Shown piece by piece: positions 692 through 53,668 of a stretch of 59,513 nucleotides of DNA; positions within the stretch are counted from its first letter, which is position 1; every line of letters begins with the position of its first letter. This stretch comes from a bacterium (GTDB lineage: Bacteria > ARS69). The notes under the pieces are model-generated. The model was not told where the DNA came from, made no database searches, and was given only the letters and a program-made list of their open reading frames with translations. Location: assembly GCA_025774805.1 (NCBI GenBank), contig JALGZR010000016.1, positions 1 to 59,513 on the forward strand. Reading direction: 5' to 3'. Both the position numbers and the translations under genes were made by a program.

Positions 692-852
692 CCCGCACAT
701 CTCACCAGTCTCTGCTACGGCAGCGGCAAAGCCGCGCCTGACTTCGTCGTTGCGGCGCTTCCGCCCTGCGACGGGGCTGCGGCGCCGCCTCGGGCGAAAG
801 CACCCCATTTCCTCGCCAGGCACGGCTATCCGCAGCCTCGCGACGAGCCTGG
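692..852 (-). repeat. Dispersed miniature palindromic element, long copy, one end missing
   Basis: This 160-bp stretch is a near match, in reverse orientation, to the copy at 53527-53668. It starts with the terminal CCCGCACATCTCACCAG and runs through the GC-rich middle (…CCCTGCGACGGGGCTGCGG…) to GACGAGCCTGG. The other terminal 16 bp or so are missing, and the sequence passes straight into the remnant of a carboxypeptidase gene. Shorter relatives lie at 9208-9285, 17130-17158, 32655-32707, 41899-41938 and 42050-42148. It contains strong hairpins and no ORF of its own. The homology is directly visible by reading; its mode of spread is inference. Confidence 0.85.
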
Positions 853-9203: not shown

Positions 9204-9289
9204 CTAGCCTGCAAATCTCACCAGGCTCGTCGTGAGGCTGCGGATAGTCGTGGCTGCCGCAGCAGAGGCTGGTGAGATATGCAGGCTAG
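9204..9289. mobile_element. Short complete copy of the dispersed miniature element with CTAG flanks
   Basis: The element spans 9208-9285 and is bounded by CTAG at 9204-9207 and 9286-9289. Its ends, CCTGCAAATCTCACCAG and CTGGTGAGATATGCAGG, are inverted repeats with one mismatch. Internally it matches the first 50 bp or so of the long copy at 53527, then jumps to the last 30 bp, so it is an internally deleted version. The right-hand CTAG supplies the TAG stop of the convergent glycosyltransferase gene at 9286. This copy defines the element ends and the probable 4-bp target duplication. Confidence 0.85.
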
Positions 9290-10425
9290 GCCTCCGCCAA
9301 GATCTCCCGGTACGCATCGACGGTCTTTTGGGCGATGCGGTCCAGGTCGAACTCCTCGCGACCGACCTCCCGTGCCCTCACCGCCAGGCGATTCCTCAGA
9401 TCCCGGTCGCGGAGAATCGCGACGACCCGTTCGGCCAGGGCGTCGACGTCCCCGATCGGGCGGACGTACCCCGTCTCCCCTTCTCGGACCATGTACGGAA
9501 TGCCCCCGGCGTCGGTGCCGACGACCGGGATCCCCGCGGCACAGGCCTCGCCGATCGCGATGGGCGCCGTCTCCTCCAGCGACGTCAGCAGGAGAAGAGA
9601 GGCCTTCCGGTACTCGTCGTGGAGCCGCTCATCGGGAACCAGACCGAGAATCTTCACGCTTCGGCCGAGACCGCGCGCCTCCACGAAATCCGCCACCTCC
9701 CGGTCGAGCGGCGTGCGCGAAGGCGGTCCGAGAAGGTGCATGTTGGTGTCAGGCACCTCCTCGAGCACACGCTCCAGGACCCGGACCGCGGTGAGCGGAT
9801 CTTTCCGGTGGCGGATCCCCCCGACCACGAGCACGTGAGGTCCCGCGGGGTCATTCCGGATCTCGAAGATCTCCTCGCCGATCGGGTTGTTCACGACGAA
9901 CTCACGATAGCTCCTCTCGGACGGCAGCATCCGGGCGGCGTACCCCGACGTGATGAAGACGTATCGGGCGCGCCGGATCTGTTCGAGATGGCGGCGAGCC
10001 CGGATCTTTCCCCGGGCTTCCTTGATCCACGACCGATGGTGAATGCTCGCCTCTTTCCACGTGATCCCGTGGAGAGTCACCGCGTACGGGCGCCCCGACG
10101 TCTCCGCCCCCGCGGTCGTCAGCCCGAGTCCCTGGGCGTGAACGACGTCCGGCTCGATCTCGTCGAGGACCGCGCGGATCTTGCGCTGCTCCGCCCACGC
10201 GTTCGTGAGCAACGTGAATCGACCGGAGGTCGAGAGGAAGTGAACGGTTGCGCCATCTCGCATCTCGACGGCGTCGCGCACGACGTCGGGTTGACAGCAG
10301 ATCACGTGGAGGTCGACGTCGGGTTGTCGGGCGAGCCCCCGGGCCAGATAGTGCGCGACCGCGGTCACGCCTCCGGGGACGAAGCGAGGATCGACCGGGT
10401 AGTGGCAGGTCAGGGCGACCCGCAC
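9286..10425 (-). CDS. GT4-type glycosyltransferase
   Basis: This is a 379-residue GT-B enzyme. The GTG start at 10425 has GGAGG six bases upstream and begins VRVALTCHYPVDPRFVPGG with the glycine loop of family 4 enzymes. The C-terminal nucleotide-sugar site shows VLVVGGIRHRKDP, LLLLTSLEETAPIAIGEA and GIPVVGTDAGGIPYMV, with the E-x7-E-like region typical of GT4. It overlaps the upstream epimerase gene by 16 nt, so the two are co-transcribed and probably act on a surface polysaccharide or glycan. Its stop codon lies inside the CTAG flank of the element at 9204-9289. Confidence 0.9.
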   Translation of the reverse strand: MRVALTCHYPVDPRFVPGGVTAVAHYLARGLARQPDVDLHVICCQPDVVRDAVEMRDGATVHFLSTSGRFTLLTNAWAEQRKIRAVLDEIEPDVVHAQGLGLTTAGAETSGRPYAVTLHGITWKEASIHHRSWIKEARGKIRARRHLEQIRRARYVFITSGYAARMLPSERSYREFVVNNPIGEEIFEIRNDPAGPHVLVVGGIRHRKDPLTAVRVLERVLEEVPDTNMHLLGPPSRTPLDREVADFVEARGLGRSVKILGLVPDERLHDEYRKASLLLLTSLEETAPIAIGEACAAGIPVVGTDAGGIPYMVREGETGYVRPIGDVDALAERVVAILRDRDLRNRLAVRAREVGREEFDLDRIAQKTVDAYREILAEA

Positions 10426-16328: not shown

Positions 16329-17129
16329 ATGGCCGAGGAATCGAGGGAAGAGATCTTCACGCGGACCGAGTACCGTCGCGTCATCGCGTGGAAGGAGCGG
16401 ATTCGACGCGAGTCTCCCTTCTTGAGGGAGGTGCTGGGGGAAGCGGGCGGTCGACGGGTTCTCGACGTCGGCTGCGGAACGGGGGAGCACACGCGACATC
16501 TCGCCGAGCAGGGCTGGCAGGCGGTCGGGATCGACCTCTCGGAGGATATGATCGAGAACGCCGCGACGCTGGCCGGCGCGATCGAAGGGGCCGGGTCGGC
16601 GCGCTACGAGCGATGCGTCGCCGCCGAGGCCGGCGGCCTTCCCGACGCGCCCTTCGATGCGGCGATCTGTCTGGGGAACATGTTCGCCTTCGCCGAGGAC
16701 GGCCGCGAGCTCGACTCGTGGCTTCGGGGAATCGCGGCCGCGCTGCGGTCGGGTGGGACGTTCCTCCTGCAGATCCTGAACTACGAGCGCATCTTGGCAA
16801 GCGCGATCCGGTATCTGCCCGTGAACTTCCGCCCCCTTTCCGAAGAGGAGGGAGACGGCGAGATCGTGTTCCTTCGAATTCTCACCCCCCGACCCGACGG
16901 CGATCTCGACTTCTACCCCGTCACGCTCACGCTCCGCCCCGGGGCCGATCCCCCGGTCGAGATCCGCTCCGCCCGTCAGGGGAAGCACCGCCCCTGGAAA
17001 CGATCGGAGATGGAGGCGGCGCTGGAGCGGGCCGGGTTCCGGGTCGATCGGATCTGGGGAGGGATGTCCGAGGTCCCCTTCGTTCCCGAGGAGTCCTACG
17101 ACCTGACGCTCGCCGCCGTGAAAGTGTAG
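16329..17129 (+). CDS. Class I SAM-dependent methyltransferase
   Basis: This is a 266-residue protein. The SAM site is RRVLDVGCGTGEHTRHLAE, followed by VGIDLSEDMI and FDAAICLGNMFAF, the Rossmann core of class I enzymes. A late insertion plus SEMEAALERAGFRVDRIWG completes the fold. Met16329 follows a purine-rich stretch. The substrate is unknown. Its TAG stop at 17127-17129 directly abuts the left end of a dispersed miniature element, the same arrangement seen at three other genes in this window. Confidence 0.88.
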   Translation: MAEESREEIFTRTEYRRVIAWKERIRRESPFLREVLGEAGGRRVLDVGCGTGEHTRHLAEQGWQAVGIDLSEDMIENAATLAGAIEGAGSARYERCVAAEAGGLPDAPFDAAICLGNMFAFAEDGRELDSWLRGIAAALRSGGTFLLQILNYERILASAIRYLPVNFRPLSEEEGDGEIVFLRILTPRPDGDLDFYPVTLTLRPGADPPVEIRSARQGKHRPWKRSEMEAALERAGFRVDRIWGGMSEVPFVPEESYDLTLAAVKV

Positions 17130-17158
17130 GCCGCATGTCTCCTCAGGCTCGTCGCGGT
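17130..17158 (+). repeat. Truncated left end of the dispersed miniature element
   Basis: The sequence after the TAG matches about 28 bp of the left end of the element at 53527 (…CCGCATGTCTCCTCAGG then CTCGTCGCGG, with substitutions). It then passes into the TonB-receptor remnant. The flanking tetranucleotide is GTAG rather than CTAG, so this copy is either degraded or rearranged. Confidence 0.6.
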
Positions 17159-24452: not shown

Positions 24453-24835
24453 ACTCTCTAAATCGCCCAAAACCGAGAATATATGGGTTTCCATCTCCCG
24501 ACGGCGGCCCAATGGGGCTCGTCGGCCCGGATTCTCGACTTGTGGGCTCTCAAGCCGCAGGAGGGGTCTGGACCGCCCGCGGCCTCGCGGCGAGCCTCGT
24601 GAGAGATGCGGGTCAGGGGCCGGTTGCGCAACGATCGATTCACGGCGGGCAACAACAAGATCTTGTTGTTGTGGTGTCCCCCGGACAACAAGATCTTGTG
24701 CACGTCGTGCCTTCCCGCGACAATACGCAACAGTCTCCCAAGGGGTCCGAGGATCGGCAAGGGCGCGGACGCCCGCCCCAACGGCCCTCTCGAGCGCGTG
24801 AGGTGCGGCAGTGCCCACCGAGGCGCGCTCCCGAG
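24453..24835. other. Intergenic region holding twin palindromes, no gene seen
   Basis: This lies between the stop of the sulfatase-like gene and the promoter of the secreted protein gene. It contains an AT-rich patch (24455-24490) and the palindromes at 24650-24699. The open frames crossing it have no family resemblance. Confidence 0.45.
24650..24699. repeat. Twin palindromes sharing the core ACAAGATCTTGT
   Basis: Bases 24650-24671 form a perfect 22-bp palindrome (CAACA repeats around AAGATCTT). A second perfect palindrome with the same 12-bp core is at 24688-24699. The centres are 33 bp apart, about three helical turns. The intervening bases (…TTGTTGT…ACAACAA…) allow alternative pairing between the two. 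This could be a paired operator or an RNA structure in the 3' end of the upstream operon. Confidence 0.75.
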
Positions 24836-32654: not shown

Positions 32655-32711
32655 CACGCCAGGCGCGGCTTTGCCGCTGCCGCAGCAGAGGCTGGTGAGA
32701 GATGCAGGCTA
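32655..32711 (+). repeat. Right-end part of the dispersed miniature element
   Basis: The stretch GCCAGGCGCGGCTTTGCC…CAGAGGCTGGTGAGAGATGCAGG matches the right half of the element family, and CTAG at 32708-32711 follows directly. The left half is not recognisable. The CTAG contains the TAG stop of the adjacent minus-strand gene. Confidence 0.75.
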
Positions 32712-33563
32712 GCCCTTCCCAAGCAACGTGTGGGAGGCGGCGATGGCGCTCTCCAAGAACGCGTCGAGCCTCGCGGCCTGCGCCTCGCCATTGCCGGCGG
32801 CGACGAGATCGGAGCCGGTCAGGACGGCGCCGTTCCAGCCCTCGGTGTGCCAACGGCCATGGCCGGCGAGTTCGGGGAGCTCGGCCCGTTTCGGGAACGG
32901 CCAGGCGTTGACGTACCAGTACGGCTCGGCGTAGCTGCCGTCACCCGGAGTCATGCCGATCCCGACCGTCTTCGCGTTCTCCCCCGAGCCCTCGAGGGTG
33001 AGCAGGGTGGCGATGTCGAAGTGATGGGGCCAGCACCGAACCGTCGACGCGTTGCCACGGGCCGCCTCGATGGCGCGGAGCTTCTCGTCAGAGCTCGCGT
33101 ACCACTTGGCGAGCTCGGCGAGGGCATCTTTCGGGACGTCGAGAGCGGCCCCCCCCGAGCCGACCGCGTGGCTCGGCATTCCGTCGTATTCGCGCAGTCC
33201 GAGGAGACTCCCGGGGGCCCTGCCGAGGATGCGGGTGACGGCGCCGTTGAGCCAGTCGAGCCCCCGGGTCAGGGTCTGGCCGTTGAGCGCGAACGCGTCG
33301 AGGCCGCTTCCTTGCTCGTCGAGCAGCCACAACGTCAGGTCGGCCACGCTCAGCGCCGAGCGCAGGCGTGGCTCGGCGGTCGTGAGCTCCCCGGCGAGGG
33401 CTCCCCGGTCGTCGAGCCACTCGAGGTTCGAGTGACTGTCGTCGGGTCGCACGGGGATCAAGTTGTTTCCGATCACGGCGGCGAGCTGCGCGGCCCAGTG
33501 CAGTTGTGTGCGCGCATCGACCAGATCGGCCGGTGCGAGGGTTCCCAGTTGCTCGTGTGCCAT
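32709..33563 (-). CDS. DUF5996-like protein
   Basis: This is a 284-residue soluble protein. The conserved-looking block CWPHHFDIATLLTLEG followed by VGIGMTPGDGSYAEPYWYVNAWPFP resembles the DUF5996 family, for which no function is known. The His pair in PHHF and the acidic/aromatic run could form a ligand site. It lies 14 bp downstream of the Rieske-GltS gene and is probably co-transcribed with it. The TAG stop at 32709-32711 lies in the CTAG next to a miniature element, so the C-terminus ends exactly at the element. Confidence 0.75.
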   Translation of the reverse strand: MAHEQLGTLAPADLVDARTQLHWAAQLAAVIGNNLIPVRPDDSHSNLEWLDDRGALAGELTTAEPRLRSALSVADLTLWLLDEQGSGLDAFALNGQTLTRGLDWLNGAVTRILGRAPGSLLGLREYDGMPSHAVGSGGAALDVPKDALAELAKWYASSDEKLRAIEAARGNASTVRCWPHHFDIATLLTLEGSGENAKTVGIGMTPGDGSYAEPYWYVNAWPFPKRAELPELAGHGRWHTEGWNGAVLTGSDLVAAGNGEAQAARLDAFLESAIAASHTLLGKG

Positions 33564-41890: not shown

Positions 41891-41898
41891 CCCCTGGT

Positions 41899-41938
41899 CC
41901 GCATATCTCACCGGTCTCCGCCGCGGCAGCGGCGATCG
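41899..41938 (-). repeat. End fragment of the dispersed miniature element
   Basis: About 40 bp (CCGCATATCTCACCGG then a GCCGCGGCAGCGGC hairpin) match the right terminus of the family in reverse orientation. The preceding tetranucleotide is CTGG rather than CTAG. It may act as a hairpin terminator for the gene ending at 41890. Confidence 0.65.
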
Positions 41939-42049
41939 TCCGAGGTGACCCGTCCCCGACCGGGCGGCTCCGCGCCGGGCGGCTCCGGAAACCTCCCCGG
42001 CCGGCATGACGCCGGAGGGCCCGGCGTGGCACAATGGGCCGGCTCGCCG

Positions 42050-42148
42050 GCAATTCTCACCGGCCTCTGCCGCGGCAGCGGCGCGCCGCGCCTGGCTTTG
42101 TCGCTGCGGCGCTTCCACCCTGTGACGGGGCTGCGGTCCCGCTTCGGA
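42050..42148 (-). repeat. Partial copy of the dispersed miniature element
   Basis: About 100 bp match the first two thirds of the reverse-orientation copy at 692-852, including ATTCTCACCGG, GCCGCGGCAGCGGC and GTCGCTGCGGCGCTTCCACCCTG. The far end is replaced by the 5' region of the SixA gene. It begins 112 bp after the fragment at 41899, and both point the same way. Confidence 0.75.
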
Positions 42149-44991: not shown

Positions 44992-45109
44992 GCTCCGCGG
45001 GGGGAAAGGCGCATCCCTCGAGCCCGCGTTTCCCATCCGGCGGGGCGAGCCGCCGACGCGGCGGAGCCCGGTCAGACATGCAGGCTGGACGTCGACCCGG
45101 CAGCGTTGG

Positions 45110-50689: not shown

Positions 50690-52669
50690 ATGCAGCCGAA
50701 CACGGCCGGCCCCTCCGTGCCTTCTTCGCCTTCATCCGCCAAGACCGTCGATCTCATCTCGGAGGCCCTCTCCCTCGAGACGCTCATTCTGGAGGAGGGT
50801 GGCGTCTCCCAGAAACAGATCGATCGTGCGCGCCGCATCGCCGCCCGGCTCAGCGAGCCGAAGCCTCTGGGACTGGTGCTCGTGGAGCTCGGTCAGCTCG
50901 CCCGCTCCGAGTACGAGCGTCTCATTCGCCTTCACCGCTCACGACTCGCGCTTCCCCTGATCCTCTATCAGGACGGCGCCCTCAGCGATGAGGGTCTCGC
51001 CCGGTACCGGGAGCGCAAGTCCGCCGATCCCGGTCTGCCGGACCGTGAGATTCTCGTCGGCGGGAACCTGGTGACCGAGCAGCAGTTCCTGCAGGCCCTC
51101 TGCGTCAAGAACGACATCGAGTTCGTGGAGCCCGAGGTCGCACTCGTCGACGACAGCCTTCTCGCGAAAGCGTCGATGAGCTACCTGGTCCGTCAGCGCG
51201 CGCTTCCCTTCCAGGAGATGGAGGGGGCGGTGGCCGTCATCCTGGCCGACCCGCTGGACGACCGGCTCATCATGGACCTCGAGCGCATCTTCGGACGTCC
51301 CGTGAAGCCGTTCGGCGCCCCCTCCGACAAGATCCTGGAAGCGCTCCGGATCCTGGACCGACTCGAGGACAGCGACGGCAAAGATGCCAAGACGTCTCTG
51401 CAGTACCGCACGATCGAAGACATCGAACCGGGGGACGATTCGGGAGAGGAGGCCGTCCGTCTCGTGGACTACCTCCTCTACCGGGCGATCGAGGTCGGCG
51501 CGAGCGATCTGCACATCGAGCCGCTCCAGAGCAGGGTGCGTGTCCGCGTCCGCGTGGACGGCGCGATGCGCCCGTTGACCGAGCTTCCGGGATCCTACGC
51601 CGCCCGGGTCGTCTCCCGCATCAAGGTTCTCGGAGGCGCGGACATCGCGGAGCGGCGCCTCCATCAGGACGGCCGGCTCCTGGTCAAGGTGGAAGATCGG
51701 GAGATCGACATCCGTCTCTCCACGTACGCGTCCGTGTTCGGAGAGACGATCGTCCTGCGGTTGCTGGATCGTCGTCGCGGGCTCGTGCCGCTGGATGGAC
51801 TGGGTTTCGAGTCGAGCGTGCTCACGGTGCTGCGGGACGTGGTGCTCCGCGCATCATCGGGTCTCGTGCTCGTCACCGGGCCTACCGGAAGCGGCAAGAC
51901 GACGACGCTCTACTCGTTCATCGACTACGTCCTGGACGACTCGATCAAGGTCATCACGAGCGAAGATCCCGTGGAGTACGTCCTGGAGGGAGTGACGCAG
52001 TGCTCCGTGAACGAGAAGTCCGGCCCGACCTTCGCGGATTCCCTCCGGGCGATGCTCCGCCAAGATCCGGACATCATCGTCCTCGGAGAGATCCGGGACA
52101 AGGTGACGGCGGAGCTCGGAGTGGAGGCCGCCCTCACCGGACACAAAGTTTTCTGCACGTTTCACACCGAGGACTCCGTCAGCGCCGTGCTCCGGCTGCT
52201 CGACATGGGCGTGGAGCCGTTCCTCGTCTCCTCGACGCTCTCCTGCATCGTGGCGCAGCGCCTCCTTCTCCGGCTGTGCGAGGACTGCCGCCGCCAGGGT
52301 CGGGCGTCTCCGAGAGATCTCCGGTTCCTCGGCATGGCACCGGAGGACCTGGGTCGGCAGCCGGTCATGGAAGGCGTCGGTTGCGCCAATTGCGGAAACA
52401 CGGGCTACCGGGGCCGCCTCGGAATCCACGAAGTCCTGCTTCCGGATGACGACTTCCGGGATGCGGTCCTTCGTCGGGCGCCCTCCCGCGAACTCCGGGC
52501 GCTGACCCGAAAGCTTCCGGTCTTCCTCACGTTGCAGGAAGACGGCTTCCTCAAGGCAGTCAAGGGAGAGACGACCCTGTCCGAGATCGCCGACAACGTT
52601 CCTCGCGATCCCGATGCGCGCCCGCTCAATGTGCTTCGAGAGATCACTTCCACGAGGGGTCTGGTATGA
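50690..52669 (+). CDS. GspE/PilB-family secretion ATPase
   Basis: This is a 659-residue protein. The N-terminal 250 residues form two MshEN/GspE_N-like units (LGLVLVELGQLARSEYERL, ILVGGNLVTEQQFLQALC, AVAVILADPLDDRLIMDL), which bind c-di-GMP in relatives. The ATPase core is VLVTGPTGSGKTTTLYS at about 397-405, an Asp box (ITSEDPVEYVLEG), Walker B (DPDIIVLGEIRD) and a His box (GHKVFCTFHTED). A zinc site CEDC…CANCG follows, as in PilB/GspE. No pilin, GspF or secretin gene is nearby. It overlaps the HDOD gene by 4 nt, which suggests control of type IV pili or secretion. Confidence 0.92.
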   Translation: MQPNTAGPSVPSSPSSAKTVDLISEALSLETLILEEGGVSQKQIDRARRIAARLSEPKPLGLVLVELGQLARSEYERLIRLHRSRLALPLILYQDGALSDEGLARYRERKSADPGLPDREILVGGNLVTEQQFLQALCVKNDIEFVEPEVALVDDSLLAKASMSYLVRQRALPFQEMEGAVAVILADPLDDRLIMDLERIFGRPVKPFGAPSDKILEALRILDRLEDSDGKDAKTSLQYRTIEDIEPGDDSGEEAVRLVDYLLYRAIEVGASDLHIEPLQSRVRVRVRVDGAMRPLTELPGSYAARVVSRIKVLGGADIAERRLHQDGRLLVKVEDREIDIRLSTYASVFGETIVLRLLDRRRGLVPLDGLGFESSVLTVLRDVVLRASSGLVLVTGPTGSGKTTTLYSFIDYVLDDSIKVITSEDPVEYVLEGVTQCSVNEKSGPTFADSLRAMLRQDPDIIVLGEIRDKVTAELGVEAALTGHKVFCTFHTEDSVSAVLRLLDMGVEPFLVSSTLSCIVAQRLLLRLCEDCRRQGRASPRDLRFLGMAPEDLGRQPVMEGVGCANCGNTGYRGRLGIHEVLLPDDDFRDAVLRRAPSRELRALTRKLPVFLTLQEDGFLKAVKGETTLSEIADNVPRDPDARPLNVLREITSTRGLV

Positions 52670-53526
52670 GTGAGATGACGGGATCTGTTGCCGGATCGCT
52701 GACCGAAGAGGTTTCACGCGTCCTCGAGACCGGCCAGGTCGTGCTGCCCCCGCTTCCCGCTCTGGGGGATCGACTGAGGATTCTGCTCGAGGACGAGGAG
52801 AAAGTCAGCCTCAAATCGGTCGGGGAGCTGATTCAGACCGATCCCGCCGTGGCCGCGACTCTCCTGAAGACGGCGAACTCCGCGCTGTTCGCCGGTCTCA
52901 GCACGATCACCGACCTTCCGCTGGCGATCTCGCGACTCGGACTCAAGCAAGTCGGGTCTCTCGTGACGACTCTGCTGTACAGGGGCCACTTCCAGACGAA
53001 GTGCAGGGAGAGGGAGGAGCTGCTCCGGATCCAATGGACGCACGCCGTCTCCTGCGCCCTTATCTGCCGACGGCTCGCGGAGGTCGGGGGGGACACCCGG
53101 GAAGAGGCCTACCTGGCCGGCCTTCTTCACGACGTCGGAAAACTCTTGGTCTACGCGGCCCTGGATCACCTAGCGTCGAAACCGGGGTTCATCGAGCCCA
53201 CGCCGTCGACACTGGCCGAGCTGATGAACGTTCTGCACACCACACTCGGCTATCGGGTTCTGAAGGACTGGGCCAGTCCGGGACCCATTGCGGAGGCCGC
53301 GCTCCACCACCACGAAGACGCGGCCACCATGGAGAATGTCGTGGTCGTCCGCGTTCAGGCGGCCAACGCGATCTCCCGCAAGATCGGACACCACGACCAG
53401 CCGGATCCGGAGATGAACGTCCTGGAGGATCCGGCCGTCGAGCGTCTCCGCATGGGAGACGTGGAGCTCGCCGAGCTCATGGTGGACGTCGAAGACGAGA
53501 TCGAGAGGATCCTGGGACTCCTCTAG
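52666..53526 (+). CDS. HDOD-domain regulatory protein
   Basis: This is a 286-residue protein. PPLPALGDRLRILLED, VSLKSVGELIQTDPAVAATLLKTANSALF and ITDLPLAISRLGLKQVGSLV are the HDOD signature. The HD-like motif LAGLLHDVGKLL at about 145-160 is intact in form. HDOD proteins modulate c-di-GMP signalling and often sit by pilus genes. The ATG at 52666 overlaps the ATPase stop, so the pair is translationally coupled. The stop TAG at 53524-53526 lies inside CTAG at the boundary of a miniature element. Confidence 0.92.
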   Translation: MSEMTGSVAGSLTEEVSRVLETGQVVLPPLPALGDRLRILLEDEEKVSLKSVGELIQTDPAVAATLLKTANSALFAGLSTITDLPLAISRLGLKQVGSLVTTLLYRGHFQTKCREREELLRIQWTHAVSCALICRRLAEVGGDTREEAYLAGLLHDVGKLLVYAALDHLASKPGFIEPTPSTLAELMNVLHTTLGYRVLKDWASPGPIAEAALHHHEDAATMENVVVVRVQAANAISRKIGHHDQPDPEMNVLEDPAVERLRMGDVELAELMVDVEDEIERILGLL

Positions 53527-53668
53527 CCCGCACATCTCACCAGGCTCGTCGCGAGGCTGCGGATAGCCGTGGCTGGCGAGGAGATGGGGTGCTTCCACCC
53601 AAGGCGGGGCCGTAGCCCCGTCGCAGGGCGGGAGCGCCGCAGCGACGAAGCCTGGTGAGGAACGCGGA
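53523..53668 (+). repeat. Long copy of the dispersed miniature element abutting a stop codon
   Basis: After CTAG (53523-53526) the element starts CCCGCACATCTCACCAG and runs for about 140 bp to GCCTGGTGAGGAACGCGG. The centre has a hairpin with CCCCGTCGCAGGGCGGGAGCGCCGC-type arms, split across several stems. It is the reverse complement of the copy at 692-852 at most positions. The right end has lost its CTAG. Confidence 0.85.

Follow-up and report, generated by a model that had tools for sequence, protein, structure and literature searches.

IS1380-type miniature inverted-repeat elements at CTAG sites and TAG stop codons of a bacterial genome

The closest described relatives of the repeat family reported here belong to the IS1380 family (PF13701), a relative of piggyBac. 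IS1380 transposases form the outgroup of piggyBac, which itself targets TTAA (PMC10813416), and IS1247, an IS1380 member, is listed with a 5-bp duplication (PMC3281130). Miniature inverted-repeat elements (MITEs) that duplicate CTAG or YTAA are already known from MITEPsy1/ISPsy2 of Pseudomonas syringae, in which a 100-bp MITE carries 18-bp inverted ends (PMC3189936). The use of YTAR as target by IS5 (PMC10359306) and the supply of TAG stops by GTAG-tagged REP families (PMC3733652) are known as well. Among the papers searched, those naming both IS1380 and miniature inverted-repeat elements describe no IS1380 MITE in title or abstract.

The family of the present host resembles two intact IS1380 elements of other genomes (described below) in its ends (CCCGCAT/CCCGGAT...) and its 4-bp duplication; those elements carry a DDE transposase, whereas the host elements are short and gene-less (47-174 bp). 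As in MITEPsy1, a MITE duplicates CTAG, but its ends are unrelated in sequence to those of the host, and the passages found on it (PMC3189936) contain no stop-codon association. The edge of the GTAG-tagged REPs supplies the TAG stop of flanking genes, as in the host family; unlike it, they belong to a tyrosine (RAYT) system, measure 20-40 bp and carry the TAG as part of the repeat, not as a duplicated target (PMC3733652). IS5 shares the YTAR 4-bp target motif, but its ends differ, and the host genome holds no DDE_Tnp_1 (IS4/IS5) match. RUP, Correia/NEMIS and similar bacterial MITEs are likewise short, gene-less, present in high copy, bounded by inverted ends and mobilised in trans; unlike the host family, they are mostly TA-ended and A+T-rich (PMC2229807).

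The window (the whole stretch of DNA analysed, 59,513 nucleotides) is one contig of a MAG of 5.10 Mb, 96% complete and assembled in 284 contigs. A family consensus was built from 46 full-length genome copies (87% mean pairwise identity), and the window copies were matched to it by blastn. With up to 3 mismatches allowed, the window holds 8 occurrences of the 18-bp terminal repeat GCCTGCATWTCTCACCAG, where 0.05 would be expected. An Rfam search of the window gave no match. The copies and the features adjoining them are as follows.

692-852, minus strand: near-complete copy, 161 bp, outer flank CTTG; 93% identity to the consensus over 161 bp.
9204-9207, unstranded: left CTAG duplication of the following short copy.
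9208-9285, plus strand: complete short copy, 78 bp, both inverted ends intact.
9286-9289, minus strand: right CTAG duplication, containing the TAG stop of the glycosyltransferase gene 9286-10425.
17130-17158, plus strand: truncated end (blastn match 17133-17156) adjoining GTAG (17126-17129), the stop of the methyltransferase gene 16329-17129.
24577-24612, minus strand: additional end, outer flank CTGA; 86% identity to the consensus.
32655-32708, plus strand: right-end fragment (98% identity, match 32657-32708), followed by CTAG 32709-32712, the stop of the minus-strand gene 32709-33563.
41898-41938, minus strand: truncated end, outer flank CTGG; blastn match 41901-41933.
42047-42148, minus strand: truncated copy, 102 bp, outer flank CTCG; 84% identity, match 42047-42147.
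45023-45084, plus strand: additional decayed copy of 62 bp, flanks CGAG and CTGG.
52666-53526, plus strand: HDOD-domain gene ending at the element (PF08668, E 4.7e-39).
53523-53526, plus strand: CTAG flank, in which TAG 53524-53526 is the stop of the upstream gene (from the sequence and the gene call).
53527-53668, plus strand: element copy, 142 bp, right arm internally deleted (about 32 bp missing); 91% identity over 53527-53655, inverted ends by the terminal-repeat matrix, CTAG on the left side only and ATGA as right flank.

All seven copies proposed by the sequence-only reading matched the family consensus by blastn (7/7); the list was real in every entry but incomplete, having missed 24577-24612, 45023-45084 and a weaker copy ending near 1694. 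Its complete short copy, with inverted ends and CTAG on both sides, was borne out at 9208-9285. The claim that the flank contains the stop of the neighbouring gene agreed with called genes at 53523-53526, 9286-9289 and 32709-32712 (CTAG) and at 17126-17129 (GTAG).

The full element is 174 bp long with inverted ends of about 17 bp, CCYGCATWTCTCACCAG; most full copies measure 172-175 bp, and shorter classes of 47, 57-63, 70 and 74-78 bp carry the same ends. A search of the whole host genome with a looser consensus, one mismatch being allowed, returned 361 terminal repeats, and the reversed control returned 0. Many MAG contigs (L229, L233, L238, L252, L266, L270, L272 and others) stop about 75-130 bp from a terminal repeat, inside a copy, which indicates that these repeats fragment short-read assemblies and that copy numbers in MAGs are probably underestimates. 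Further counts were made in a sample of 61 stretches plus the window (1.25 Mb). In this sample a position matrix for the ends found 245, against 3 in the reversed sequence, and 173 copies were recognised, 84 with both ends and the remainder with one; the stretches were taken from contigs with hits, so copy density is biased upward, and comparisons within the sample are less affected. Short, gene-less, dispersed and bounded by inverted ends that are shared with an autonomous element, although that element is located in a distant genome and not in the host, the family is a non-autonomous MITE with IS1380-type inverted ends. Its interior is specific to the host genome, only the outer 30-50 bp matching other phyla, and the same-family relatives tested (other genera) held no comparable element family; both observations fit independent MITE expansions from related IS1380 elements. 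A second family with ends CCCGGACTATTCATGA (L107:13909-14084 and other host stretches) had 23 ends in the 1.25 Mb and none in the reversed control; 12 of these ends have a CTAG flank and 5 lie exactly at stops. It is probably another IS1380-derived MITE.

Of the 84 complete pairs, 25 are bounded by two CTAGs; in many of the rest one CTAG is intact and the other flank differs from it at a single position. Given the symmetry of both CTAG and the element ends, a 4-bp duplication and a TA duplication with a terminal G and C look alike at CTAG sites. Asymmetric repeats tell them apart: TTAG/TTAG surrounds a related MITE in Gemmatimonadetes ARS67 and occurs in 5 of 7 copies with TTAG on the left in an Acidobacteria MAG, and CTAA/CTAA surrounds related MITEs in two further genomes. 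The duplication is therefore a true one of 4 bp, with motif YTAR, mostly CTAG. Five abutting pairs of copies use a single CTAG in common, as would result from insertion of a new copy into the flanking CTAG of an older one. The two flanks of a copy sometimes differ (TTAG..CTAG and TTAG..CTAA hybrids). At non-stop ends, changes affect the outer position of the YTAR flank in 30/176 cases and the position adjoining the element in 16/176, a difference of about twofold; both this difference and the hybrids could reflect donor overhang carried over in the manner of piggyBac. The commonest decayed forms of the CTAG flank are CTGG (27 ends) and CCAG (15 ends), and these changes are more frequent than those at other A/T positions of the ends. 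Vsr-type repair of T:G in CTAG would be expected to yield these two forms and would also explain why CTAG is depleted.

These ends, together with CTAG, were found in at least 115 stretches of public genomes, of Gammaproteobacteria, Acidobacteria, Gemmatimonadetes, Planctomycetes, Nitrospira, Verrucomicrobia, Eisenbacteria and others. One of the stretches, from an Arenicellales chromosome, contains (L292:643-2426) an autonomous IS1380 of 1,784 bp with ends CCCGCATATSTCACCAA, CTAG on both sides and one intact PF13701 transposase (E 6e-152). Its ends comprise CCCGCATATGTCACCAA and CCCGCATATCTCACCAA, the latter exact at one end and with one mismatch at the other. This element interrupts a gene. 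When the flanks were joined with exactly one CTAG, an ORF of 488 aa was obtained, reading GAGTGKTL^LAIAKAQ across the Walker A motif; joined with two CTAGs (8 bases) or none, the ORF was not restored. This ORF demonstrates the empty site of an element bearing such ends. As the same-family relatives belong to other genera without a comparable family, the empty-site proof rests on this ORF and on the abutting copies. A second intact IS1380 (L185; 1,629 bp, PF13701 E 6e-142) is flanked by TTAG/TTAG. A functional IS1380 transposase was not found in the host MAG, where only a C-terminal fragment of 131 aa (C17:1747-2085) is present, short and decayed, with no ends of its own seen; an intact copy may be unassembled or lost. 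Without an intact IS1380 there, the mobilising enzyme of the host is one that we infer, and the MITE status is unaffected. Transposases of the IS630 (PF13358), RAYT (PF01797), IS4/IS5 (PF01609) and IS701-like DDE_5 (PF13546) types had no match in the host genome, and the DDE gene of genome G121 is not flanked by the ends of the family.

CTAG is as rare as the sequence-only reading had supposed, with 22 occurrences in the window against 66.6 expected and 317 in the 1.25 Mb against 977, a depletion of about threefold. The CTAGs that carry no element number 208; genes contain 46 of them, stops 61 and intergenic DNA 101, so that 162/208 are at stops or intergenic. Copies occupy 46/107 of the CTAGs at stops (43%), 41/142 of the intergenic ones (29%) and 1/47 of those inside genes (2%); the difference between stops and intergenic sites (Fisher p 0.02) is confounded and in part expected, since a stop is held by selection and an intergenic CTAG flank decays. 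Most of the pattern is explained by selection against gene disruption combined with the low number of CTAGs in coding DNA.

For the analysis of stops, a codon-usage gene caller was trained on the 1.25-Mb sample (961 genes, 88% coding). Exactly at the stop of an adjacent gene began 61 of the 173 copies, against 0.9 expected from random intergenic placement (1000 trials, maximum 6). Genes carrying a copy were 48 of 110 with C-TAG (44%), 7 of 26 with T-TAG, 2 of 4 with TTAA and 7 of 770 with non-YTAR stops in the 1.25 Mb, and in three cases one copy has a flank that provides the stops of two convergent genes. Among the occupied genes are those for FtsA, pyruvate dehydrogenase E1, a PilT ATPase and an IscS-like desulfurase; the profiles of these four families reach to about 1-33 residues from the stop, which indicates native C-termini and not truncations. 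In genomes of other phyla, the frame closed by the flank TAG is long (≥200 codons) at 34 ends, and the two alternative frames are long at 17 and 10 (p 3e-4), so the association extends beyond the host genome. In one stretch (L180:8376-8557) a copy lies between two convergent genes with TTAA on both sides, each gene ending in TAA there, so that one duplication rebuilt two stops.

The proposals of the sequence-only reading on insertion fared unevenly. A 4-bp duplication that rebuilds the TAG stop is supported, and the outcomes it had named as adverse were not seen: stops are enriched, and the CTAG is target DNA and not owned by the element, as follows from the restored ORF, the shared CTAGs and the asymmetric YTAR repeats. 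CTAG is indeed the main target, although the motif is not strictly CTAG, being YTAR, with TTAG and TTAA stops used too. The idea of a safe-site strategy was right in effect and fits as a passive outcome; as a strategy it is unproven, stop occupancy being only modestly above intergenic.

In the reading preferred here, which is given a probability of about 0.92, the family is an IS1380-type MITE mobilised in trans, with YTAR duplication and neutral persistence at stops. An IS1380-family DDE transposase (PF13701) supplied in trans would excise the element and join it to YTAR, duplicating 4 bp; the YTAR used would nearly always be CTAG. With CTAG avoided inside the genes of the GC-rich host, the usable sites would be mainly C-preceded TAG stops and intergenic DNA. 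The CTAG duplicated at a stop would rebuild the TAG, on both strands where convergent genes use the same site, and as the protein would then be left intact, the insertion would be nearly neutral and would persist. We infer both that transposases of the IS1380 class moved the host copies and that neutrality is the reason for their persistence.

Active targeting, by a machinery that favours sites of translation termination over and above the occurrence of CTAG, would agree with the higher occupancy of stop than of intergenic CTAGs and with the over-representation of convergent pairs (45/168 copies with both neighbours called, against 116/899 gene pairs). This excess in occupancy is small and biased, part of the intergenic CTAGs counted as "empty" may be left over from old copies, and stops outside YTAR are almost never used; active targeting is accordingly improbable. 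The hairpin might instead have been domesticated as a 3'-end structure and kept to end transcription or stabilise mRNA. The fold is very stable (z -8.0 for the copy at 53527, -7.2 for the short copy 9208-9285) and compensatory changes occur in 11 of 56 pairs, but inverted arms give a foldback structure in any such MITE, covariation contributes little (-0.74 of -68.8 kcal/mol), the copies show no preferred orientation towards the stop (12 vs 8) and many copies are truncated. In an intrinsic-terminator test of the element copies the hairpin was present, very strong as a predicted RNA, and neither a T-run nor a terminator-like site was found, which leaves the terminator role suggested by the sequence-only reading possible but unsupported. 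Maintenance as a 3'-end structure is considered unlikely, and so is, to the same degree, a stop-codon niche in the broader sense, in which insertion is directed at gene ends or the hairpin serves as a 3'-end structure, nearly half of the C-TAG genes then being occupied by benefit and not by neutrality.

The two remaining alternatives concern the enzyme. A two-base TA duplication of the IS630/Tc1-mariner type, with the terminal G and C belonging to the element (C-TA-[G...C]-TA-G), gives the same outcome as the 4-bp model at CTAG sites and agrees with the more variable outer base and the few hybrid pairs. It does not give the repeated TTAG/TTAG and CTAA/CTAA flanks, by which it is largely refuted; moreover, the host genome contains no DDE_3 (IS630) transposase, and the autonomous element with the same ends is an IS1380, so this model is very improbable. 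Least probable of all are REP/BIME-type palindromes moved by a RAYT (Y1_Tnp), with a tetranucleotide tag supplying the TAG stop: short palindromic repeats do lie at gene ends, and GTAG-REPs are reported to give flanking ORFs their TAG stops (PMC3733652), but no Y1_Tnp is present in the host genome, the ends are symmetric and inverted, the target is duplicated and the parent is of DDE type, and the restored empty site refutes it.

The IS1380-type MITE reading assigns a widespread type of end to IS1380, and adds its YTAR duplication and a measured stop-codon occupancy. It provides a clean and quantified case in which the target word of a mobile element coincides with a stop codon and is rebuilt by the duplication, with 44% of the sampled C-TAG genes occupied, and it links related miniature elements from many bacterial phyla with IS1380 and piggyBac. 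It also shows how a tetranucleotide that a genome avoids throughout can become a neutral landing site.
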